Shown: piece after piece, positions 7,140-62,680 of the stretch
Layout: every line of letters starts with the position of its first letter
How positions within the stretch are numbered: the stretch's first letter is position 1
Assembly: GCF_000003605.2 (NCBI RefSeq)
Contig: NW_003142304.1
Location: forward strand, 63,853-127,852
DNA length: 64,000 bases
Source of the DNA: Saccoglossus kowalevskii
Lineage: Eukaryota > Hemichordata > Enteropneusta > Harrimaniidae
Reading direction: 5' to 3'
Notes under the pieces: model-generated
What the model saw: only the letters and a program-made list of their open reading frames with translations
What the model was told of the DNA's origin: nothing
Databases searched by the model: none
Position numbers and translations under genes: made by a program

Positions 7140-9650
7140 TGTGTTGCTTTCACGGCTCATGTGACCATTGGAATGTCATTATTAACACAGGAAGACAGAT
7201 GCACTGTAAGGCGCTTAACACCAATCGACTTAAGGTAAGGAAATTGTGGTTATTTCAAAGGTCCGTATTTCTTTTAATGGATAAACATGATGAAACAATT
7301 AAGCTAACACAAACATCGACAAAGACGCTCTTAGTAACGCTGGGAAAAATAACACTTTCGAAGTATATTTCAGTGATTCGTTTTAAATTGGCAGTTCACG
7401 ACAATGTTTGAACGAGCTTACAGTATACAGGAAGTCCAATAAACACTTGATTCGAATTCCCCGTCTAAAGTATAATGTCACCGCAGAGTTGGATGTTTAC
7501 TGAAGTGTGAAAACTGAGAGTCCTTGAATTTTGTTTGCAACGTATCTGCTCGTCTGTCGTCTCTATAGCTAAGTAGTGTGCCTTTGGGTTGTTTGTATTA
7601 GTGTTTCATTTCATAACATCTTATTGCGCTCTCTTATTTGCCATCACATGACCCTTGTATTGTGATCACGTGGGTGATTTCACGGTGGGGTACTTGTCAA
7701 TGTATTTTCATGATGGTGCCATCAACGTATCTTAATAGTCAATGTTCGGTTCAAACCTGATTACGGTGCCTTATGGATTTCTCAGGTTTTTTCTATATGG
7801 CTATGAAAGCGTAGTTTTGCAATCAAAGATAACTGACTGTTATATTTATTAGGATTTGTATAACTGAATGACGATGTGAAAGAAGATATGAACGTCTAAA
7901 TTAATTGATTGTCATGGTAATAATCGTTGTTTATATTACTCTGCGATGCTTAAGATCAACTAAAATATTATAATTTGTCAACATGTTTATTTTGTCAATC
8001 ATCTTTAATTACAGACACAAAAATTATATTTTTTAACTGTCACATGATAAATAATAAACGTGTTCGAGGATCATTCAAATATCAGTTCTTCTGGGTATAA
8101 ATACGTCATTTAGATACATTTCAATAGATTTCTCAAATTCGCTCAAAATATTGTGTTTTGTTTGCTTTGCGAGTAGTGTAGTCAACATTCATTTCCAAAT
8201 CGTCTACATGGTTTGCCGACACCTCTATGTTTGTCAAACTCGGTATACATGTGTCGTTAACTTTTTTGAAATTTCCTATTTCAATGGGAACTTCAATTTA
8301 TATTGCCGTGCTTATGTGACGCTTCCATTAAAAGCCTTCACAAATCACCTCAATGACGGTTGAATCGCTTTTAGTCTATCATGTCCATTTAAAAGGCCTA
8401 AAAACATAGTGATCTTTGTCATTAAAAACCGCAGTCTATCCCGATTCTATCCTGGTTGTTCTCAAATAGATATTTGAGGAGATTGAAACAAACATAATAA
8501 CGATTAGTAGGTGGATATACTCAATAAGAATTCTCAAGAAGCTTGTCCTTGCATTACAGAAATTGTTTTGACCGTGTGTGCGCATGTGCGTTATACATAT
8601 TATGCAAAATATTCAACGTTCATCTGACATGAATATTGTTGTCTAGCTTAGAGTAATTCAGGAATACATCGTGGGAGTAAGCGTAATTAGAGTAAATAGA
8701 TCCCGATTTTGTAATTTTGAGATTCCACATGGAGAATGTGATTGTAAAGATGTTGTCTAACTGTAACAAACTTCACGAACGGATGTTTATAGATACTAAA
8801 ATAAAGTATCTTCTACAAACTAAACGACTGTAATACACTATTTTGTTATGCAAACAATATTTGTTTCTGATTAATAAAGATAAGTTAAGGTCTATACTAC
8901 GTCAGTTGAGATCATCATCACACAACCTTCGGGTTAAGTTGGATTGGAAATTTCCATCCCGGAGAATGTGAAATTATGTAAACATTGTAATTTGTACTTT
9001 ATTGAGGACGGAATTAATGTTTGCCTAGCATGTCCACGATCTATGAATAAATATCTACCTGTATTTTTCCGTAATGATCATTCATACCATTCATATCCGT
9101 CCCATGCAAACTGATAATTCTAGTATTTTGTGTGTGTTTTTGAACGCAAATAATGTCGACTTTTCAGCCATTCAAGTGTTTTCTAATTGTTGTATATCCC
9201 AGGCTATAGTGCTGAACAGACTATTTAAGCTATCTTTGTTTTTTTATTTAACAAACTATTATTATGTTTTCTACATACATTTCACGATTTGTTTAAGTTA
9301 GTAAAATGACGATCTAGATTTCTATTCATATATATAGGCATAAAGATTGGAAAACAGTTGAGGTACATTTCCCTAGTGCATTTCAATAGTCCTTGACGTA
9401 AAAGATTACTTTCGGTCAATGTCACAACTTAGTATAAAGCGGTTTCGTCATAAAACACACATATCACTCAAAGTGACAACCCTTATTAGTTCTGAGAGAC
9501 ATTTTGAAGGACATATTAGCTTAGCTTCAGAGTACAAGACCATTACTCTCATGTTTACACTCCGTAATCGGCCATTATAGAACTTACATTAGAGACACAA
9601 GTATTACACAACAATCCCCCTTCCATTACAGTTTGTTATTTGTGTAATCG
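7140..9650 (+). repeat. Inverted duplication A, left copy (about 2.5 kb)
   Basis: The block is collinear, in reverse complement, with about 41780-44150. Matches seen in order include gtaaggcgcttaacacca near 7208, ggaagtccaataaacactt near 7430, acgacagacgagc (reverse) near 7550, ataacatcttattgcgct near 7613, tgttcggttcaaa near 7745, agtctatcatgtccattt near 8372, the region 8520-8700, and cacacatatcactcaaagtg near 9455. Identity is locally high but falls to about two thirds elsewhere. One frame shared with the other copy (7155-7230, reading HVTIGMSLLTQED then TVRRLTP) suggests an ancestral exon. The left copy has decayed there. Confidence 0.8.
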
Positions 9651-12610: not shown

Positions 12611-12805
12611 TTAAAACGGGAGGGTCGTCACCTGCGCACGCGCGGGAATTGAATCCCAAGCGACGATAACAGCATACGCTAAAACGCAAAGGCTCATGTA
12701 AACAATGACACGNNNNNNNNNNNNNNNNNNNNNNNNNNNNNNNNNNNNNNNNNNNNNNNNNNTGGCCATCTGACGCGTGCGCAGGTGACGACTCCCCCGC
12801 TTTAA
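12611..12805. mobile_element. TTAA-flanked MITE spanning the assembly gap
   Basis: TTAA at 12611-12614 and 12802-12805 bounds an element whose ends are inverted repeats: AACGGGAGGGTCGTCACC on the left, AGCGGGGGAGTCGTCACC reading inward from the right, both continuing into TGCGCACGCG. TTAA target duplication is typical of piggyBac and Kolobok superfamilies. The interior contains the 50-N gap, so true length is unknown and may be much more than 187 bp. No coding sequence is visible in the remaining part. Confidence 0.8.
12713..12762. other. Assembly gap (50 N)
   Basis: Exactly 50 N bases, probably a placeholder of nominal size. It lies inside an inverted-repeat element, which could explain the assembly failure. 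Any open frame crossing it is artificial. Confidence 0.99.
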
Positions 12806-19500: not shown

Positions 19501-20762
19501 CGTGTTCATACGAAAGCCGAGAGGGGCCTTCCTACTTCACAGTTCCAACTTCCGAGTTCCGACTTCTAACTTCCGAGTTCCGTCTTCTAACTTCCGAGTT
19601 CCGTCTTCTAACTTCCGAGTTCCGACTTCTAACTTCCGAGTTATTATTGTTACAAACCGCAGGGGCAAAAAGTACCGTCATCTGTAGTGATGAAACTTCA
19701 TAGTAGTTTCTATCATTTGTGCACAGAATTGTTTTGCATACAGGTTATGGGGTGAGATCAGCGCCAAAATTATTTTTATTTTTATATTATCTTTGCATTA
19801 TGATTGGCATTGTCTAACCATATTTATATTGTCTTTGCATTTGAATATATTCTACCTTGGAAAAAGTGACCTGATATTATTCTACCCATGGACCCTTCAT
19901 TGTGATCTACCTTAGTTAAGACAAGTCCACTGATTATGATCTATCTGGTCGCCTGATTATAAGCTCTGATTATATTCTAGTTTGTGACACGTTCCGTGGT
20001 AATTCCTATATTCTTGTGAGTCAAATATAAGTGACAACTGCTACCCAAACAGATTAATCATCAGTCTCACCTATACTTGACGAACACTGACATTCACTTA
20101 TTTTTTTCGGACATGAGGTATGGAGAAAGTGCAAGGAACGTTGGTTCCACTAAATGACATTAATTATTATTTTTTCAGGTTCGATAGGTATATTATTAAT
20201 CATGAAATTGACTTTCACTTTATTTTAAGGATACAAATATAATGTTATGTTTCATGTTTTCCCCGAAATCTCAGATTGTATGCTTTAACTTATATATTTA
20301 TGTATATATATATCAAGACTCCTATACTTCCACATTTTAAATTTCCGACTTCAAAGTTCTTACTTCTGACTTCCAATTTCCAAATTCTCACTTCCAAATT
20401 CTTAGTTCCAATTTCCGACTTCTCACTTCCGACTTCACATTTCCACTTCTCACTTCTGAATTCGAACTTGAGAGTTCTCTATTCAGACTTCATATTTGGC
20501 CTCTAAGAACATATCAATGCATTATAAAAAGTAAAACTAATTTTAGCGCTGATCTCACCCCATAACCTGTATGCAAAACAATTCTGTGCACAAATGATAG
20601 ACTACTATGTAGTTTCATCACTACAGATGACGGTACTTTTTTGCTCCTGTGGTTTGCAACAATAATAACTCGGAAGTTAGAAGTCGGAACTCGGAAGTTA
20701 GAACTCGAAACTCGAAGTTGGAACTGTGAAGTAGGCCCCTCTCGGTTTTTTGTATGTTCACG
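19501..20762. mobile_element. Foldback element with minisatellite arms
   Basis: The left arm (19501-about 19772) and right arm (about 20537-20762) are long inverted repeats. They run from cgtgttcatacgaaagccga, through a minisatellite, a ttattattgtt stretch, taccgtcatctgtagtgatg, and gttatggggtgagatcagcg. The left minisatellite (about 19545-19640) has about 4.5 copies of a 21 bp unit (acttccgagttccgtcttcta), which in one frame reads SNFRVPT repeats. The right arm has the shorter inverse. A third, more degenerate tract of the same units lies inside at about 20338-20480. The centre has no transposase. The layout fits a non-autonomous foldback (FB-like) DNA transposon. No clear target duplication is visible. 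Confidence 0.85.
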
Positions 20763-41779: not shown

Positions 41780-44150
41780 TCAAAATGTAATGGGTTTGTC
41801 ATGTGATACTTTCATCACTAATGTAAGTTCTATATTGGCCGATTTCTAAGTGTAAACATGAGTATTGTGAAGCTAAGCAAGGACACGATATACCCTTCGA
41901 CATATCACGCGGGTAGGGGTAATAAGGGTTGTCACTTTGAGTGATATGTGTGTTTTATGATGAAACCACTTAAAACGAAGTTGTGACATTGACCGAAAGT
42001 AATCAATGCCGCCAAGGACTGTAGCAATGCAACAGGGAAATGTACTTTAACTTATCTTTATGAAAGATGTCAATAAAGCCATTTAATAATTTAAACGAAT
42101 TTTGGCGAAATGTATGCATAAACAAAATAAATTTACAAAGTGTAAAGGCTTTTTTGGTTTCTTTTGATGAATGTTAAGATATCATATTTTGTTATCTGAC
42201 AACGTCTTGCATTTCGATATAGTTGGGCGTCAAACTTACATTCCCCGTACCAATCTTTTGAATTAGAAAATGGTGATAATCACGTTTACTCCCACCAGGT
42301 ATTCTTGAATTACACTCGGTAAAACACCATGGATTATGTGAGATAAAGCAGAGAAATAATGTGCAATATTTGCATAGTGTTTATAACACACGTGCGCACA
42401 AACGAGAAAACAAGACACAAACTTATTGAGAATTCCGGATCGAGTAAAATCACGTACTACTTGTTATTATGCAAATCTAACCTTAGAAATAATATTCTTT
42501 GTAATCCATTTTTAAATATCCATTTGAGGCAAAACCGTGACATGGACCGGGATATACTGTGGAGTTTAATGAGAATGCTTGCTATGTTTGTCCACTCTTT
42601 TAATGGACACGATAGACTGGAAAACGATTAAATGCGTTTAAAGGAAGCGCCACGAAAGGATAGCAATGTTAATTACAATTGTAAAAGGCGAAAAACATGT
42701 GTATCATGCTTCTGACATACCAAACGACATTGTTAAAACGGGACATTGTTAAAACAGGACATACTTTTAAAGAAGTATACTGACTAACTGCATGTGGGCT
42801 ATTAAAACACAACATTTTCATTTCTGTTTGATTCAGAAACATATTGAAACAGAGAATGCACGAAACTGAATGATACTTGAACATGTTAATCTATCCGGTG
42901 ACAGTCGTGGACTCGTGTTTTTAATCAAAAACGATAAAACCTGATGATCTATTATGATATGTCAATAGTCAATACTCCAATGGTTATGACCATGACAATC
43001 AAATAACTCATCATCAAAGAACACAATTCATATTCGTATTTTTGTTCAGCATCTTGCCAACCATGATGCATTGCGGTCAAATAATGAAAACGTTAATATG
43101 TGATTGGTCGGAGAATACATGTGACGAATAATTAGTTCTGATTTAGGATGAAAAAAACATATATCGATGCATTAATCATTATCATCTCCGTTACCAATTG
43201 TAATCCACGTGTTTGACGTTGTAACATGAAATCGACCTAACAAAAAGTCATAGATCTATATTTGTCAAGACCAAATTATTGTGCAAACCAGTCTAATTGG
43301 GTTTGGACAAATTTCTACAAACTTGTAATAGAATGAGTCAAATGATATAATTACAGTTTGGGATGTGGCATCGGTTATACGCACGGCAGCCTAAGAATGC
43401 TCGTTTGTTGTACTACATAATAACGAAAAACAACAGTCAGCTATCTTTGAACGGAATTCAAAACAATTCGTCCAAACACATGAGGCACCATGTTCAAATT
43501 TCGATCCGAACAATGATTATTATTAATTGTGTTATCATAATGAACATACCATTGACAAGAAAAGCAATCTTGATTACTCATGTGATCAAAATAGAATGGT
43601 CATGTGATGTCAAATAAAAAAGCGCAATAAGATGTTATGAAATAAAACACTAATACAAACATCCCAAAGGCACACTACTTAACTATAGAGACGACAGACG
43701 AGCGGATAAGTTGCAAACAAAATTCAAGGACTCTCGATTTTCACATTTTAGTAAACATTCCACTCTGCAGTGATACATTAGTTAAGACGGGAAATTCGAA
43801 TCAAGAGTTTATTGGACTTCCTGTATACTGTAAGCTCGTCCATCCATCGCAGTGAATTCTCAATTGAAAACTAATCACTAAAAATGTACTTGTATAAGTG
43901 TTTTCCCCCAGAGTCACTACGAGCGTTCTCTACTGCTGTTTGTATCAGCAGAATTGTGTTTGTGTATTTTACCTTACAGCTGTGCCTTTTCCTTTGAAGT
44001 AATCGAGATTTTCATACTTTAAGTCGAATGGTGTTAAGCGCCTTACGGTTGATTCCTGTGTTATGAAAAACATTCCATTGGTTACATGAACAAGTGGTAG
44101 AATGGGCTGTGTCTGATGTTTACAATGTGAATAGTAGCGAATTAGTGGGC
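41780..44150 (-). repeat. Inverted duplication A, right copy (about 2.4 kb)
   Basis: Reverse-complement partner of about 7140-9650, matching in collinear order over its full length. Both copies keep aacccttatta with tgtttacac and atcggccaatatagaactt near one end (41825-41935 here, 9478-9590 there) and the TVRRLTP frame near the other. The copies are about 32 kb apart. No terminal inverted repeats or transposase are seen at the edges, so an inverted segmental duplication is as likely as two copies of an unknown repeat. Confidence 0.8.
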
Positions 44151-44160: not shown

Positions 44161-45682
44161 ATCTACGACCAACGATTTATAAATATGTTCTTCAAATACT
44201 TTTTCAAGAATTACTTGGCATGTTGATCAACTCAACTACAAATACAAAAACAAAGGAAAGAAAATAATTTGAATAAAAGGAATCTGTAAATAGCTTAAAC
44301 AGCTAATCTAGTCAGATCTTTTTGACTAGTACGAGTAAATAAAATTTATATATACCTCTGAACTAATGGACAATACTAATTATTACACCTGATATTAAAA
44401 GGTAAATAAATAATTCATATTGAACTTACGGAGAAAAAGACATGACATTTTTAAAAATTCCGGGTATACATTTCTCACAAACTACGCAATCAATTTGTCT
44501 GACATTTTGGAACAAGTGCATTATCATTTGACAATATCATCGTGATTGGTCATGCAGTGTTTTCTGCATGCTGGGTGAAGGCAAACATCTTCATCTCCGT
44601 CTTCTTGTCGCTTCAACCATCTTTGCACAGAATATGTTTAATATCATCTTTTGGTAACTATGATAACGCAAATCAGCTAATTGGTGGATATCTGTAATGC
44701 TGCTTGCAGCTTTATTTACATTCATTATTGGACAAGGAGAATAACACACAATACATTGAAGTTTCCAAAATTGTCAAATGAATGTTTTTCAATATTAACT
44801 GTTTAACTAATGACTTAAACTAGTTAGGGTTATCGTCATCGTTGAATTTTATTGCTCATATATGAAATGCTCTTCTCCCCCAAAAAATACATAACGCTAC
44901 AATGATGGAAAAAGTATATCCTGTTTCCATGGAAACCTTGTACGCTATGAGTTCGCTTCGATCTGTGCATTACTCTGTTATATTGAGCATGATACATATT
45001 CCATGCGAAATTTTATAGCCACAGTAGTAATATATTTATTTAGAAACAATGATCAGAATACAGACTCTGCGGTCGATTTATTATTTAAAATGTCACTAAA
45101 CGACACGACAATATGTGGTTGTGTAGCATTACCACAAATGAATGAGACTGGCTGACCTTTGAAAATATGACTACATATTAACGAAATTTTAATAAAGACG
45201 CCAGGGTAACGTAATACCGATTACATGTGTATATTAGATTATTTCTTCTAATGTAATTACACTCCGCTATCATCTCTAGCTAACCACTCCAATCATGTAA
45301 TTCGGGATTTTGCCTAATCCACAGTTATTTTGTTTTTCTTTGCTCAAAAAAATCGATTAACCAACACATTTTTGAAATTATTTTCGCCGCTGAATGTATT
45401 CCCAATGCCGAATAAACTGTTAAATAAGTATTGCCCCAAAATATGTAATGTTGATTGCATCAGTCACGGTTAGTTGCATGGATGCCGCGGGGTGTGTGTA
45501 AATTCAACCCACTTGGCCGTTGGCAGGCTACGGTTAAACTACAGAAATACTGGATGAATCGACCCCAGGAACGCAGACCAGAGTTTCGTACGTCTCAAAC
45601 ACACGGGCTATTGACAAGTGAGCCCTCAACACTGGGGCAACTAGTGCGTTTATTGACTCCCTACGTGCCTCAATAAACTATA
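44160..45682. other. Stretch without a recognisable gene
   Basis: Noncoding AT-rich sequence. A perfect palindrome GTTTCCATGGAAAC (44923-44936) resembles an X-box. No exon was supported. Confidence 0.45.
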
Positions 45683-45868
45683 TACTGTAAAATACTTTAT
45701 TGTCGCTGGAAAGACTTTTTGGGTGTTTTGTACGGAATTTATTTTCACTGGTTATTGATGAGTTCAAAAAAAAAAAGGTATATTCGCTGGATTTTATTTT
45801 CACTGAATCATTCCTTCAGCGAAAATAGCGAAAGTTAATTCCAAGTGAAAATAAAGTATTTTACAGTA
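45683..45868. mobile_element. MITE with TACTGTAAAATAC ends, copy 1
   Basis: A 186 bp element whose ends are the inverted repeat TACTGTAAAATACTTTATT. The interior has ttcgctggattttattttca and ttcattccttcagcgaaaat, forming a long potential stem. A second copy of the same family is at 53346-53542 in CDKAL1 intron 3. It is non-autonomous with no open frame. Superfamily not established. Confidence 0.9.
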
Positions 45869-46329
45869 AATTTTATTTGTCCAAATGCAGTATAGTAAAA
45901 AAAAATCACTAGTTAATTTCAATAACCTTGATTCACGAAACCTCCTGTGCATGATTTCCCATGTTGCAGCGCGTGATTTGGGAGTCTCATGCACGTTGAT
46001 TTTATGTGTCATACAATATAAAAAAAAAAGCTAATGACGTTAAAAAACCTTGATCCCTACTTCCAATGTCAGGGGGAAATTGGAATGAAGTAATTATCCT
46101 CATATGGAAGGGTTTGATTTCAGTTCCGCATTACCCCAATTGCCTACGTAGGCATTGTTTGAAAACAAAAACAGAGCAGCTGAGTCTGCAAATGAATGTG
46201 GATATTCCCCAAAAATAAGACCAAGGTCATTCTCCAAGATATAATCCATATAATTAGCTTTTACCTTAATAGGCGTATTCGTTTACTGTTAATAAGCGTA
46301 TTGTGTGTAAGTAACCCATAGTATAAAGT

Positions 46330-50261: not shown

Positions 50262-53200
50262 GTATGCACTTAGGAGATTGAGGAACCTAGTAGTATTTAA
50301 TACTATTCTGGATGAGGAGTTTAATTTATGTGAAATAGCGTGTGGGGTGTTGCATAGATAGAGTCTGCAATTATAGAAATGTTCCATGATTTTTTGTTAT
50401 CAAATTCAATGTGATCATGTTATAAAGATTCAAGAAAGATGGGGTGTAGAACCAAAAGAAAATGCATTTTAAAACACAGGTTTTTTTTTATTTGGTCAAA
50501 AAGAGTCTCTTTTGAGTACAGTAATGGCATAACTCAATGTCCAAATATGGGCATTGGTTTGTTATAATATATTATACCATAATATATTATACCTGTGTGT
50601 TTTATTTTTACAGTGTCATTCCAGGCTGTCAGAGTGTGTACGTAAAAACATGGGGATGTTCGCATAATAATTCTGACAGTGAATACATGGCAGGACAGTT
50701 AGCTTCCTATGGCTACAAGATTACAGGTGAGAACACTGAAATATAACTTTTAACTAAGTTTTAATTATGCTATTTTTGTTGATGAAGTGAAATCATCTAA
50801 ATTAAACCCCACATGAACTTATAGAATAGAATCATTGATTATTTTACATACCTCATCAGGCTATTAGCCAGGAATTTGCAACTGCCAGTCCAAAACAATT
50901 CAACTCCATGTAGATGGTTTTGGATATATTTTGGTAAAATTATCAAAGAACAATAGGAAAAAACAGAAAAAGCTGCCAGTCCTAAACCAAAGTTGCCAGT
51001 CCATTTGGTGGGTGGACTGGCTAACACACTTTATGTCACAATATTTCCATCAGTTACAGTAATTTTATGGTATTGCATGAATATCCGCATCCTAGTTTTG
51101 TAAATTTCCAATATGGAACAATAAGTCATTTTTCGCAAGCTGCGAAATCACGCGTGACCATGGTTTACGCACCTTAGCAACCAATTGAGTCACATGATAC
51201 AGGTCAAGCTTTCGGTTCAATATGGTAGCAACCACATTGTCCTACTTGTTTTGAACCACATAACGAAACATTATCTGTCCCAATGGGAGTCAAACGGTGC
51301 GCTTACGACGGATGTAAGAGTGATTCTCGCTTTCAGTACAAAAATTATATGAATGCTGTTTTTTTTTTTGCGATTCCCTAAATTAAAAACGCAGTCTGAA
51401 AAGTGCGATTGATGGATCAGTGCCTGTTCTCGGGCCAGTGTTGGGTCACAATTCTGGTCGACACAGAATCATCCAGGACATGTACATGTATGCTTCTTTC
51501 CTGCACTTTGTGGAAGGAAAGGGTTCTTCGGAGTCGTATCCAGACCCAACAACAGCGATTGCGAAAGGTGTCGAACGCCGTATATTCAAATCACGGACAA
51601 TGCTGAGCGGCAATCAAAAGAAACGACGGAAAACATTTAAACCTGTTGATACGGTTTAACTTTATTTTGCAAATTGTACTGATCGGAACTTTACCGTGCT
51701 TGTTTTCATGTTTCAATATTTATTGTTATAATTTTATGATCGTGTATTTTTTTGCGATTCCGAATAAAATGTGGTTTACCATGGGATTGGCCTTTTTTTT
51801 TATTTACAACTCACAAGTGTACATCTTGTCTTAACTTTAGTATCCCGATGAAAACCAGATTCTTGACATTACTGTTACCTCGGAACAATATTGCCACAGT
51901 TAGGGAATACCTCTCCTGACAAAGAGATAAGCGCAGAATTAAATTGTAATATTTAATACTTGTACAATTTAATACTCATACTAACAGGTTTTAAAAATTG
52001 TTTTATTCAACTTCCTTTCTATTTCGAAAAGTTATGAATTTTCAAGCTATGTATTTTTAAAGCATGCTTGTTTACTATAAGCAATATTGACAGTTTCCTG
52101 TTATTTGTATGGATGCTTGTGCGTATTAGGCAGTGTCGACAGATTGTTGTTATTCATGTGAACTAGTGTGTGAATCATGCAATATCGGCTGTTTCCCGAT
52201 ATTTGTTAGGAACCTCAAATGCTGTTCACGCTAGTAATGGTGAATGTAGCAGAAATGTGCCTTTGACATGTGATGCATTTACATTTAAACATGCCCGTTG
52301 TCAAACAACTTGAAATCTTCGCACGATTTGTAGGCCCAAAGCTTCTTCCGGCCATAGTCGGACCGATAATGCATTAAAACATCGGACAAACCGAATTCTG
52401 GAACATTCGTGAAATCACTATAGAGTAGCCTGGTAATTTCAAAGGATCGATGAAATTGCGACCAAGTTTGCTACTTTAAGTCTTGAAGCAAGCTCATTTT
52501 TTAGGATCATGGCGTAAAATTAGAGGTCTTCCTCGAGCTCCAAATCGTGCACAGCTTTAGCAATTGCAAGAAGAATATTCTTGAAATGCTGAATTTACGC
52601 AGCAAGTCTTTGAGCTGTGGCACGGTCACTCTGTCGAAGTCAGCCATGATCAAAAACGTGAAACAAATGCAATAAATCACTCGGAAATTTAATGCACGAC
52701 ACTAGGTGCACGCACGATTTAGCACTATATTGATTCAACGCTTGACCTGTATCCCATGACTAGCAACCGGTTGCTAGGCAAATTTAATGGTCTCGCGAGA
52801 TCTCGACCGAAGCGAAAAATAGCCTATTACGCAATATTTCTGAGATGGCAGACATGTTTGAAAAAGAAATTTACAGCAAGAAGGTGCTAGAAAGCTTCTA
52901 CCATCGTGTTTGTTTCTTGGCTTTATACACAAATCGATTTGAATGGAAAGATAATTCCCTGTATACTGTCATCGTGACAACTTTGTGGCATCCTGGTAAT
53001 AACCTTATAGTATGAGATCTATGATTATCGCTATGACGATAATGTAATTTGATGTATGCTTTATTTGTAAAAATGACAGAGACTGAAGAAGCTGCTGATC
53101 TATGGTTGTTGAACAGTTGTACGGTGAAAACGCCGGCAGAACAACATTTCCAAAACTCGATCATCAAAGCGAGGGAGCAAAATAAATACATGGTATTAGC

Positions 53201-56200
53201 TGGATGTGTTCCACAAGCGCAGCCTAAACTTGATTATATCAATGGCGTCAGTGTCGTCGGTGTCCAACAGATTGATCGAATTGTAGAAGTTGTAGAGGAA
53301 ACATTCAAAGGTAATGTAATACCTCTCAAAAGTCACACCTCCTGGTACTGTAAAATACTTGCCTGGAGTTAATTTTCGCTGAAAAGACTTTTTTGGTGTT
53401 TTGTAAGGAATTTATTTTCACTGATTTTTGACAAGTTGAATGTAAATTATTGGAAAAAAAGTTATATTCGCTGGATTTTATTTTCACTGAATCATTCCTT
53501 CAGCGAAAATTAATTCCAAGTGAAAATAAAGTATTTTAAGTACTTTCTGAGAATACAAATTCTTTATCATTGAGAATTCATCAAATATTTTCCCTCAAAA
53601 GTACAAGCAGCTGTCATTGAAATTCAGAAACATTTTATTATGGGAAGAATGTTGGAGATTATTGCTGTAATATACCCCCAGAAATTCCAGGCTGTAATAT
53701 ACCCCCAGAAATTCCAGGCTGTAATATACCCCCAGAAATTCCAGGCTGTGTGACCTTTAGGGGTTAGGCTTCTTCATATTGAATTTTGCATGTTTGAAAT
53801 ACTAGAAGAGTGTTTTCTGGACTAATGAATAAAATTTGAAAGTCATTCAACATCATAATAATGTTGTTTGTTTTTTCAGGCCATACTGTAAGGTTATTTG
53901 GTCAAAAAAAGAAAGATGGTAAGAAAATTGGTGGCGCTCCTTTGAATCTTCCAAAAATTAGAAAAAATCCACTTATTGAAATTATTGCTATAAATACCGG
54001 GTAAGTCCCAAAGTTTTTATAGTCTTAGGTTGTGCGGTTCAAAGGTTACACAAGTCATAGTTTGTGGGGGTCATAGGTCATATTTTCTCGGGTTAAATTT
54101 TAACAAAGTCATGTTTTTCGATATCACAGTTTACAGTTGTAATATCTTATCAATGTGAAAATATAAATAAACTTATTCTGATTTACAAAATCAGTGAAAT
54201 TACTTTTGGTTTACTGTTATAGCAAAATGCTTTTCTCCAGTTGAAAGCTCTTTATTTGCATTTCTCCAAATATCTGGAAAACCAGAAGACCAGAAGAATT
54301 ATTTTGCAATGTGCTTTTTTGTTTTTGTTCAGCACATTTTAATGGTTTGTTTTGTTTTACTTCACAGCTGTTTAAATGCATGTACTTACTGTAAAACGAA
54401 ATATGCCAGAGGTGAGCTAGGTAGTTATCAACCAAGTGAATTGGTGGCACGAGCCAAGCAATCATTCGAAGGTAAACTATTTTTTGTTAGTCCCCCGTTC
54501 AGACGACGTTCAAAAATGCAAACTTAAGGATTGACCTCTGTGTGTGCGTCCATGGACCTTAATGCACATCATTTTGTTTTTTTCAGATCGGATTCAAAAT
54601 GGCCATTTTGTTTTAATGAATGTGCTTCTAGACAAGCTTTGACTGATTATGTTCAAATTTTATATATTCATCATACATCATGTCATAGATATACAGATGT
54701 ATTGGTTTGACAAACCGTTTAAAAATGGTCGAATGGTGGCCATTTTTGAGCTGAAAAATCATCAAAATGTACCATTTCGTTCAACCTTATATTGGACATT
54801 ATGGGATTTTGATACAAGTCCTTTTTCGGATCAGATTAAAAATGGCCAACCGGTGACCAAGATACAAAGTGTCTGAATGTCAATCATTTTAATGTTAAAA
54901 AATCAGCTTCTGGATTCATATCTCTGACATGTTTATGTTCAAACTATATTACTATAAACAAAACTATGTATCTTAAATTTGATAACAGGAACTGTGCCAT
55001 TCATGACTTGTTTTTGGATTGCAGTTACATAGTTCACATCTTCATCTAACATTTTCTTATATTTACATAGTGTTTATTTTAATGTAAAATACCAAATAAT
55101 GATATTTCTTTCCATGACCACTAGAGGGTGTATGTGAGTTGTGGTTAACTAGTGAGGATACTGGTGCCTATGGTAAAGACATAGGTGTTACAATAGTGGA
55201 GTTACTATGGCAACTTGTAGAGGTCATTCCTGATGGATGTATGATGAGAATAGGAATGACAAATCCACCGTATATACTTGAACATTTAGAGGTGAGTATG
55301 GAACATCTAGGTCATGTTGTCTCAGATATGTAATTAATCGGCCATCTTGGATAATATTTCTCATGCACTTGAACAATAGTGTTTTTCACACAAAAATAGA
55401 ACTGTCATAACCATGGAATGATTTTTAGTGTCTAATTGGTCCAAATGACAAAAATTTGTGTAAATGAAACAAAAAACATTTCCCAGGAACTAATTTTAGT
55501 CATTTCAGTGATTCCGTTATCAATACGTAACTATTCTAGTTTTTGTTTACTTTTGTTCATCTAAATTGATTATTAATCAAATATAATTACCGTAAAATCT
55601 GTATTAGAAGCCGCATCCCTAATAGAAGTCGCACCCATTCTTTTTGAATGTTTGAGAAGCAAAAATTCATCATTTCTCATATGTGTAGATGCTCTAATAG
55701 AAGCCGCATTCCCTCTGTCGCATTGTACCATTTTAATAGAAGCCGCGGTTTCTAATACAGATTTTACAGTAGTGGTGAAATTTACGAACTACGATATTGT
55801 CATTATCAACATAAGCTCAGATTCTCTAAATATGATTTATTTGTGTTCAAGTGCATCACATGCATACTACTAAATAATAAACTGCCAAATAAATTATAGC
55901 GAAAAAAAATGTCAGTAATTACTCTGGGTTCTCAAGCAATTCAAAAACTTATCTTCTGAGTATTGAGTATTATGTCATATACAACATTGGTTTTAGTCAG
56001 TGACTGTATAAAATTTGTAAATATTGCTGTCATGAAAGCTTACATTAGAGGCTTTTCCTGCCTTATCTGAAAAATCATTTTATTACTGGTATTGAATACC
56101 GGTATACTAGTATCTACCCAATGAAAATTGGATATGTTTAATTCTTTAGGATATTATTACGTTTTGCTAGGATGCTGGAGAAATAATTCGTAATTAGCTC

Positions 56201-59200
56201 TTTCCAATTTATATTCAGAAAATAACAAAATTTGCAATAATTTTTTGAGGAATTTTTTCAGGAATATTCATGCCATGTGTAATATGCACAGACGTCATGA
56301 GATTACAGTGAGGTTTTCAGTGAATGTTCACTTGAATTTTTACTCGCTCTTGACTTATCCTCTGTTTTTTGTTAACTGAACTCATATGTACATGTGTGTC
56401 TGTCTATAGGAAATTTCCAAGATTTTAAAGCACCCGAGAGTTTATTCGTTTTTACATGTGCCTGTCCAATCAGGATCAGACAGCGTATTGATGGACATGA
56501 AACGAGAGTACTGTGTTGACGATTTTAAACATGTTTGTAATTTTCTTAAAAAGAGGTCAGTATCTTAAAAAACATTACATAACACGTCTCTCGAGAGCCC
56601 CCTGTTTTTGTTAGTTCTTAAAGTAAAAACATGTGTATCACAGTAACAATGAATTTGTATTTCATTTCCTAGCTTTGTCAGTTCTATTACGTAGTGTATT
56701 ATTTTGATTTTAAATACCAAGTCGTCAAATTTCACTCAAGTTTGGTGTTTTGTTTTTTGTTTATACATCCAGTATTTCTGAAGCTTTCTGAAGTTGTTTT
56801 CTTAACTGAATCACTATGATGCAAGTTCACAACAACTCATGAGTCACATGACCATATGGCTGCCTTTGGCAAGAAAAACAATCAGTTTCCACTTATTAAA
56901 TGCTAGTTCTATTTAAAGTTACAAGATCTTGTTGTAAATGCTATACTAAATAGGTTCACAATAACAATCTTCTGATATTGTTAAACAAAGTTAGTTTGTT
57001 CCACTGTTATCGAAGATGACAGGGTGAGCTGTTCATAAGTTGATTGTGTGTTGTTGTCTATTTTTGACTTCTTTTTGAAAACTACATGCTCAATGGTTTT
57101 GATACTTTGTATGTAGGTACCTTGGGTAGACCTATGTCAGATTTGTTCATACGTGACAATATCTTCAATTCTATATTTTTGGCAAATATTTTTGGTAAAA
57201 CACAAAGCCTATCACAAAGCTGTAAATCTGAGAATGAGTTTGTAATTAGCCTGTGGGAGCAACTAGTAAGAGTTCTCCCAATGGTGAACTCTGTCATTGT
57301 CTTGAGAACTGTCTGTGCAGTCTTTTTTTGTATTAATTGTGGATATATTTATTACAGAGTTCCTGGTGTCACCATAGCAACAGATATTATATGTGGTTTT
57401 CCCACAGAAACTGACGAGGTATGTACTGTTGAAATTGGGCCGGCGAATTCTATTGCATCATTATAGTACCTTTGCTCTGAATAAACACATAGATTTCACT
57501 GCAGTTATATTTTTAACATCGTTAAATGTCGTGTTATTATCTCACAGGATTTTGATGAGACAATGCAGCTAGTAGAAGAGTACAAGTTTCCTAGCTTATT
57601 TATTAATCAATATTTTCCAAGGCCAGGAACTCCGTCAGCAAAAATGACACGTGTCCCAACAAGAGAGGTGAGATGAGTTGATTTTTCCAGATTAGAAACT
57701 AATGTAAGAAGTCAAAATCTAAGAATATGCATGTTCAGAGCCAACACAACATTGGCATGTTTTCAGTGTTATAAAACCAAGCATATTCAGGGCCAATAGA
57801 ACATTAGCATGTTTTCAGTGTTTTAAAACCATGCATGTTCAGGGCCAACAGAACATTAACATGTCTTTCAGTGTTATAAAACTATGCATGTTCAGGGCCA
57901 ACAGAATGTTAACATGTCTTTCAGTGTTATAAAACTATGCATGTTCAGGGCCAACAGAACATTAACACATTTTCAATGTTATAAAACCATGCATGTTCAG
58001 AGCCAACAGAACATTAACATGTCTTTCAGTGTTATAAAACTATGCATGTTCAGGGCCAACAGAACATTAACATGTCTTTCAGTGTTATAAAACTATGCAT
58101 GTTCAGGGCTAACAGAACATTAACATGTCTTTCAGTGTTATAAAACTATGCATGTTCAGGGGCCAACAGAACATTAACATGTCTTTCAGTGTTATAAAAC
58201 TATGCATGTTCAGGGCTAACAGAACATTAACATGTCTTTCAGTGTTATAAAACTATGCATGTTCAGGGCCAACAGAACATTAGCATGTTTTCAGTGTTAT
58301 AAAACCATGCATGTTCAGGGCCAACAGAACATTTGTAACCTGGATAATAAGAAACATATTTTACCATTTCAGGTGAAAAAAAGAACAAAAAAATTATCCC
58401 AGTTATTTCAAGACTACAGACCATATGATCACAAAGTTGGTGAAGAGCAGCATGTACTGGTGACAGAAGATTCACATGACGGCAGATTTTATGTAGCACA
58501 TAACAAGTTTTACGATCAAGTATGAAAATAAAGTTTTCTGTATTTCCATCCGCTGCCAACTGAAACATGGGTCGTATAAAAAAGTGCATATGCATGCATT
58601 CACTGTTTTTTCTTTTATAATTTTTATTCATAAAATATTCAAAAAAATACATTACTTCAAAATACTCTTATCACATGCACATAGGAATGTTGTCTCAGAG
58701 TAAATTATACAATCTATGCTTTATATACAGTGTTAACCATGTTGAAATGGTTGACCTTTTGACATTCAAATGGTTGTCATTGTTCACAGAAACACAAATA
58801 ATAAGAAATTACATCAATCTTGTGTAAAGTGAAATAGTGGCAGCAGATTTACAGCATCTAAAAAATTAATAGTCACTTATTTGTTTTAGGTATTAGTCCC
58901 GAAAGAAGAGAATTTACTTGGAAAAATGATTAAAGTGAAAATTACATCCACGGGCAAACATTATCTCATAGGTGACATATTGAAAGATGAGGAGACGGTC
59001 ACTCCATCCATTGCTGTGCCATTGCCAAAGGGCTGTGTCTCAGGTGCTAATCAACAGGTATGCATGTTTCTCTAGTATTTCAACAATACAGATAAATTGG
59101 AGTTCAATATTCCATTATGAGAAATAAACAACTTTCATTAGATATGCAATGTCCAACAATCGCCCATAGTGAGTCATTAAATGGACGAATGCTACAAAAA

Positions 59201-62011: not shown

Positions 62012-62130
62012 TCTAATTATTATCCACACAAATATTATTTATTGTTTAGGTGTTGAGTCTAGACCTGATGCAGCAATCACTTGCTACATGTGTCTTCCAT
62101 TACATACATTGCTATAATGTCATCTGTAAA
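62012..62130 (+). other. CDKAL1: Start of CDKAL1 3' untranslated region
   Basis: Follows the stop codon. No AATAAA is seen here; the first plausible hexamer noticed is ATTAAA at 62886-62891, beyond the satellite, so the 3' end is not defined. Confidence 0.4.
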
Positions 62131-62680
62131 TTTTATTAGTTGATTCAAAATGCCATCAACTATGCCTAGGTATGATGCTAGTAATATCTCATCACAGTCA
62201 GCTATGGACTGTAAATTTCATTGAAATTCCATCAACTATGCCTAGGTACAATGCTTGTAATATCTCATCACACTCAACTATTAACTGTAAATCTGATTGG
62301 TTGATTCAAAATGCCATCAACTATGTCTAGGTATGATGCTAATAATATCTCATCACAGTCAGCTATGGACTGTAAATTTCATTGAAATTCCATCAACTAT
62401 GCCTAGGTACAATGCTTGTAATATCTCATCACACTCAACTATTAACTGTAAATCTGATTGGTTGATTCAAAATGCCATCAACTATGCCTAGGTATGATGC
62501 TAATAATATCTCATCACAGTCAGCTATGGACTGTAAATTTCATTGAAATTCCATCAACTATGCCTAGGTATAATGCTTGTAATATCTCATCACACTCAAC
62601 TATTAACTGTAAATCTGATTGGTTGATTCAAAATGCCATAAACTATGCCTAGGTATGATGCTAGTAATATCTCATCATGG
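62130..62680 (+). repeat. 161 bp satellite, about 3.4 copies
   Basis: A 161 bp unit consists of two related halves of about 80 bp: one with atgatgctaataatatctca and cagctatggactgtaaattt, the other with acaatgcttgtaatatctca and caactattaactgtaaatct. Two copies encode an identical 64-codon frame (starting 62297 and 62458), an artefact of the near-perfect repeat. Confidence 0.95.

Follow-up and report, generated by a model that had tools for sequence, protein, structure and literature searches.

An intron of a tRNA methylthiotransferase gene contains an element of ca. 1.7 kb (positions 51115-52833) whose inverted ends are diverged and about 105 bp long. We consider this element, with a probability of about three in four, to be a decayed, internally deleted and non-autonomous cut-and-paste transposon of the ISL2EU type. 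In a sequence-only reading, the stretch had been proposed to be a DNA transposon whose THAP and SAP genes converge and whose centre is deleted, and this proposal was supported by the inverted ends, by two domain heads that both score below threshold, and by a centre in which no domain was recognized. The layout was confirmed as well: a THAP-like frame reads inward from the left end and a SAP-like frame reads inward from the right end, so that the two converge. Positions refer to the window, which is the whole 64-kb stretch of DNA that was analysed. The features are as follows.

50525-57466, plus strand: exon pieces of a MiaB-like-B tRNA methylthiotransferase gene, from profile matches
51113..51114, no strand: AT, left candidate target-site duplication (5-bp reading: AATAT, 51110-51114)
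51115..51226, plus strand: left terminal inverted repeat, starting with GG, from local alignment
51283..51659, plus strand: remnant of a THAP-headed gene, from the ATG at 51283, interrupted by two frame breaks and a single in-frame stop; from a Pfam match to a read-through
51660..52284, no strand: centre without recognizable coding domain; 8 of 8 overlapping open frames without credible Pfam match
52285..52470, minus strand: open frame of 61 aa that shares its reading frame with the SAP start, without Pfam match
52507..52647, minus strand: start of a SAP-headed gene with the first half of a SAP domain, from the ATG at 52647; Pfam E 0.0077
52724..52833, minus strand: right terminal inverted repeat, from local alignment
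52834..52835, no strand: AT, right candidate target-site duplication (5-bp reading: AATAT, 52833-52837)

Inverted ends and target site

Diverged inverted ends of ca. 110 bp had been noticed before and were recovered by local alignment, in which 51120-51226 paired with 52724-52828. With strict scoring, the end-pair score of 52 was equalled by 1 of 5000 random pairs taken from the same window. With lax scoring the score was 144; of 495 random pairs from the window one attained it, and of 500 letter shuffles none did, the best of them reaching 121. The outermost 22 bases are identical between the ends at 15 positions. A 17-base outer pattern occurred twice in the window, once in each end, and not at all in 100 shuffles; since the pattern was taken from these ends, the count shows only that the window holds no further exact copy. 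The right end contains a palindrome at 52757-52780 with two 12-nt arms that are 92% complementary, a putative feature that may be a binding site.

The element was located where the sequence-only reading had placed it, but the borders given there (51109..52839) were a few bases too wide, with the GG of the left end at 51115 and the right end at 52832 or 52833. In a gapless alignment of the ends, the left end reads AT directly followed by GG, and an AT is found at the matching place on the right, where the terminal base differs. A perfect 5-bp duplication, AATAT, fits equally well as AT at both flanks. The right end starts with TG if the duplication is taken as AT and with GC if it is taken as 5 bp. 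The AT reading gives the target T-AT-A, compared to A-AT-T reported for ISL2EU.

When the element and each of its ends were compared with the window by BLAST at E values up to 1, the only hits besides self-matches and the end-to-end match were of 28 bases or less, and no second copy of the element was found within the 64 kb. A search with the end pattern in genome_contigs gave 81 stretches, which by their titles were from bacteria or archaea among the matches listed and were taken as chance.

Remnants of two convergent genes

The THAP-side frame begins at an ATG 168 bases inside the left end and contains CxxxxC, with which a THAP-like finger begins. Past the two frame breaks and the stop, the THAP-side piece carries a 12-residue motif which we take to be typical of THAP ends. 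The read-through matched THAP with 21.1 bits (E 5.3e-4, profile positions 1-58 of 87), below the Pfam cut-off of 23.9, and this match is a favoured one because the frames across the two breaks and the stop were picked by eye. Single open pieces gave no THAP match in the Pfam searches (sets of two pieces, one 34-aa piece, two pieces and one piece). One frame over the remnant matched DUF4590 with an E value of 0.039, which was taken as chance, and 0 matches were obtained when the THAP read-through was compared with the sequences in the PDB.

On the other side, the SAP frame starts at an ATG 186 bases inside the right end. Its SAP match of 16.3 bits (E 0.0077) covered profile positions 1-20 of 37 and was also below the Pfam cut-off of 23.9; E values of 0.0049 and 0.0041 were obtained with other cuts of the sequence. 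When a second SAP-side piece, read in another frame, was added, the match still covered no more than profile positions 1-20. The 61-aa frame at 52285..52470 is possibly a downstream part of the SAP-headed gene, and it may resemble invertebrate proteins with SAP, SWIM and YqaJ domains. A degenerate pattern for a motif of SAP-YqaJ proteins found 0 stretches in viral_contigs, so that the link between this frame and YqaJ proteins is a putative one. YqaJ, SWIM and SAP domains were not found together in the literature searched.

The 61-aa SAP-side frame gave 15 pattern matches in viral_contigs and 590 in genome_contigs, and the 90-aa THAP-side frame gave 17 in viral_contigs, with 0 relatives in each case. 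Both collections hold viruses and prokaryotes, and misses in them therefore carry little weight and are no evidence against an animal transposon family.

Between the two remnants, all open frames of at least 40 aa, counted from stop to stop and overlapping 51660-52284, were searched with Pfam. No transposase or nuclease domain was found in any of the eight; the best matches, to a La domain (E 0.14) and to Agd3_C (E 0.18), were both taken as chance. Pfam searches found no HTH, PHIS-type DDE, YqaJ or KDZ core in this copy, as expected for HTH and DDE if these were deleted. The suggestion that a catalytic gene had been located in the deleted centre agrees with the lack of any recognized catalytic domain there, but its restriction to one gene, with DDE and YqaJ named among the candidate cores, fits less well: the DDE and YqaJ domains belong to two genes in ISL2EU, and probably two catalytic parts are thus missing here.

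Relation to ISL2EU and alternative origins

The layout could not be matched to a named superfamily in the sequence-only reading, but one probably fits, since ISL2EU is a two-gene element of the PHIS superfamily with a THAP-HTH-DDE transposase gene and a second gene with YqaJ (PMC4482050, available part). The same text describes AT target duplications within the target A-AT-T, ends of 6-259 bp that usually start with GG, autonomous elements that average about 4840 bp in length, and occurrence in animals (PMC4482050). According to the available part of a second paper, the first gene encodes a DDE transposase that carries either HTH or THAP, and the second encodes a YqaJ exonuclease (PMC9179366). 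The element described here is like ISL2EU in having two genes, one of them for a protein with THAP (here a weak, sub-threshold and frame-broken read-through), in the AT beside GG at its left end, in an end length within 6-259 bp and in its presumably animal host. It is unlike ISL2EU in the absence of DDE and YqaJ cores, in a right end that starts with TG, in the ambiguity of the duplication (AT or AATAT), and in its length of 1.7 kb compared to the mean of ca. 4840 bp of autonomous elements. Furthermore, it has a SAP head, whereas SAP has 0 occurrences in the available text of each of the two ISL2EU papers (PMC4482050, PMC9179366). The available parts of these papers do not give the relative orientation of the two ISL2EU genes. 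Repbase places Spy under ISL2EU, and YqaJ, THAP and SAP are absent from the available text of the paper that reports this (PMC12730594). In a scallop, THAP and YqaJ are among the contracted transposition-related gene families, in a passage that does not link them to one element (PMC10225492, available part). This copy retains neither DDE nor YqaJ, and its membership of the superfamily is therefore probable rather than proven.

Another type of THAP-bearing transposon, Kolobok or P-like, that acquired a SAP gene is an improbable source of the element. THAP also heads the transposases of Kolobok and of P elements and Galileo, but the duplications of these groups, TTAA for Kolobok and 8 bp for P elements and Galileo, are absent at the borders. 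The THAP domain of Galileo, an element of the P superfamily, is reportedly the subject of one paper.

The element may also stem from an undescribed superfamily in which one protein with THAP and one with SAP accompany some other catalytic core. None of the core is left in this copy, the duplication may be 5 bp, and the missing mention of SAP in the available text of both ISL2EU papers would agree with such an origin. On the other hand, the two-gene plan, the GG and the AT fit ISL2EU without the need for a new class (PMC4482050, available part). We consider an undescribed superfamily quite unlikely.

The SAP protein would be the transposase if the element were of the KDZ (Zisupton-like) type, to which we give a still lower probability. 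SAP domains occur in Zisupton-type proteins, but THAP is not known as a part of KDZ elements, and the Pfam searches found no KDZ core in this copy, although it may have been deleted. It is hardly credible that two weak domain-like frames lie by chance beside an unrelated inverted repeat, since, even with both domain scores under the curated cut-offs and the THAP frames picked by eye, each frame begins at an ATG, which lies 168 bases inside the left end in one case and 186 bases inside the right end in the other, and only 1 of 5000 random pairs equalled the inverted match.

If the element is of the ISL2EU type, its parent would have carried two convergent genes. The first would have encoded a THAP-HTH-DDE transposase that bound the ends through THAP and cut and joined the DNA, and the second a YqaJ-nuclease protein with SAP as its first domain. 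The present copy has kept both heads and the ends and would have lost both catalytic parts. It was probably mobilized by the transposase of a full copy and would since have decayed in the intron.

A doubtful extension of this ISL2EU-type origin is that SAP heads the YqaJ protein of ISL2EU itself, which would give both proteins their own DNA-binding head, and that deleted copies keeping heads and ends could titrate the binding of ends. KP, a repressor of P elements, is an analogue of such a competitor. If the YqaJ protein is indeed headed by SAP, the nuclease may reach DNA, perhaps at the ends of the element, through a DNA-binding domain of its own. What the additional PHIS-element proteins do was described as still unknown by Han et al. 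2015 (PMC4482050, available part). The element as such is ordinary and its significance goes little beyond annotation.

Host gene and other repeats in the window

Profile matches of the host gene flank the element on both sides. UPF0004 was matched by 50525-50746 at profile positions 2-34 and by 53043-53372 at positions 28-84, and MiaB-like-B was matched by the same two pieces at positions 2-35 and 30-114. Further downstream, MiaB-like-B matches were found at 54198-54527 (profile positions 140-176) and 57068-57466 (positions 280-300). The first two exon pieces are consecutive without a gap in the profile, which places the element in an intron of the tRNA methylthiotransferase gene. The host MiaB-like-B gene is presumably of the CDKAL1 type, and its division by introns indicates a eukaryotic host.

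A tandem array at 57726-58333, with a unit of ca. 53 bp in 11.5 copies, lies downstream of the last of these exon pieces. A dispersed repeat that holds TTTTCACTGAATCATTCC is present at 45680-45871 and 53369-53510 (57 nt at 98%), and its copy at 45680-45871 is flanked by inverted sequences (50 nt at 74%) and is MITE-like. A run of 50 N at 12713-12762 is an assembly gap. A second tandem array, at 62124-62677, consists of 3.4 copies of a 161-bp unit with 97% matches. Short repeats of the CTTCCGAGTT type are arranged in inverted blocks at 19543-20725; the arms of these blocks at 19709-19783 and 20527-20601 are 96% complementary and perhaps belong to a foldback element. Dispersed inverted copies at 7203-7678 and 43573-44049, with a longest arm of 311 nt at 87%, are probably members of a repeat family of the host.
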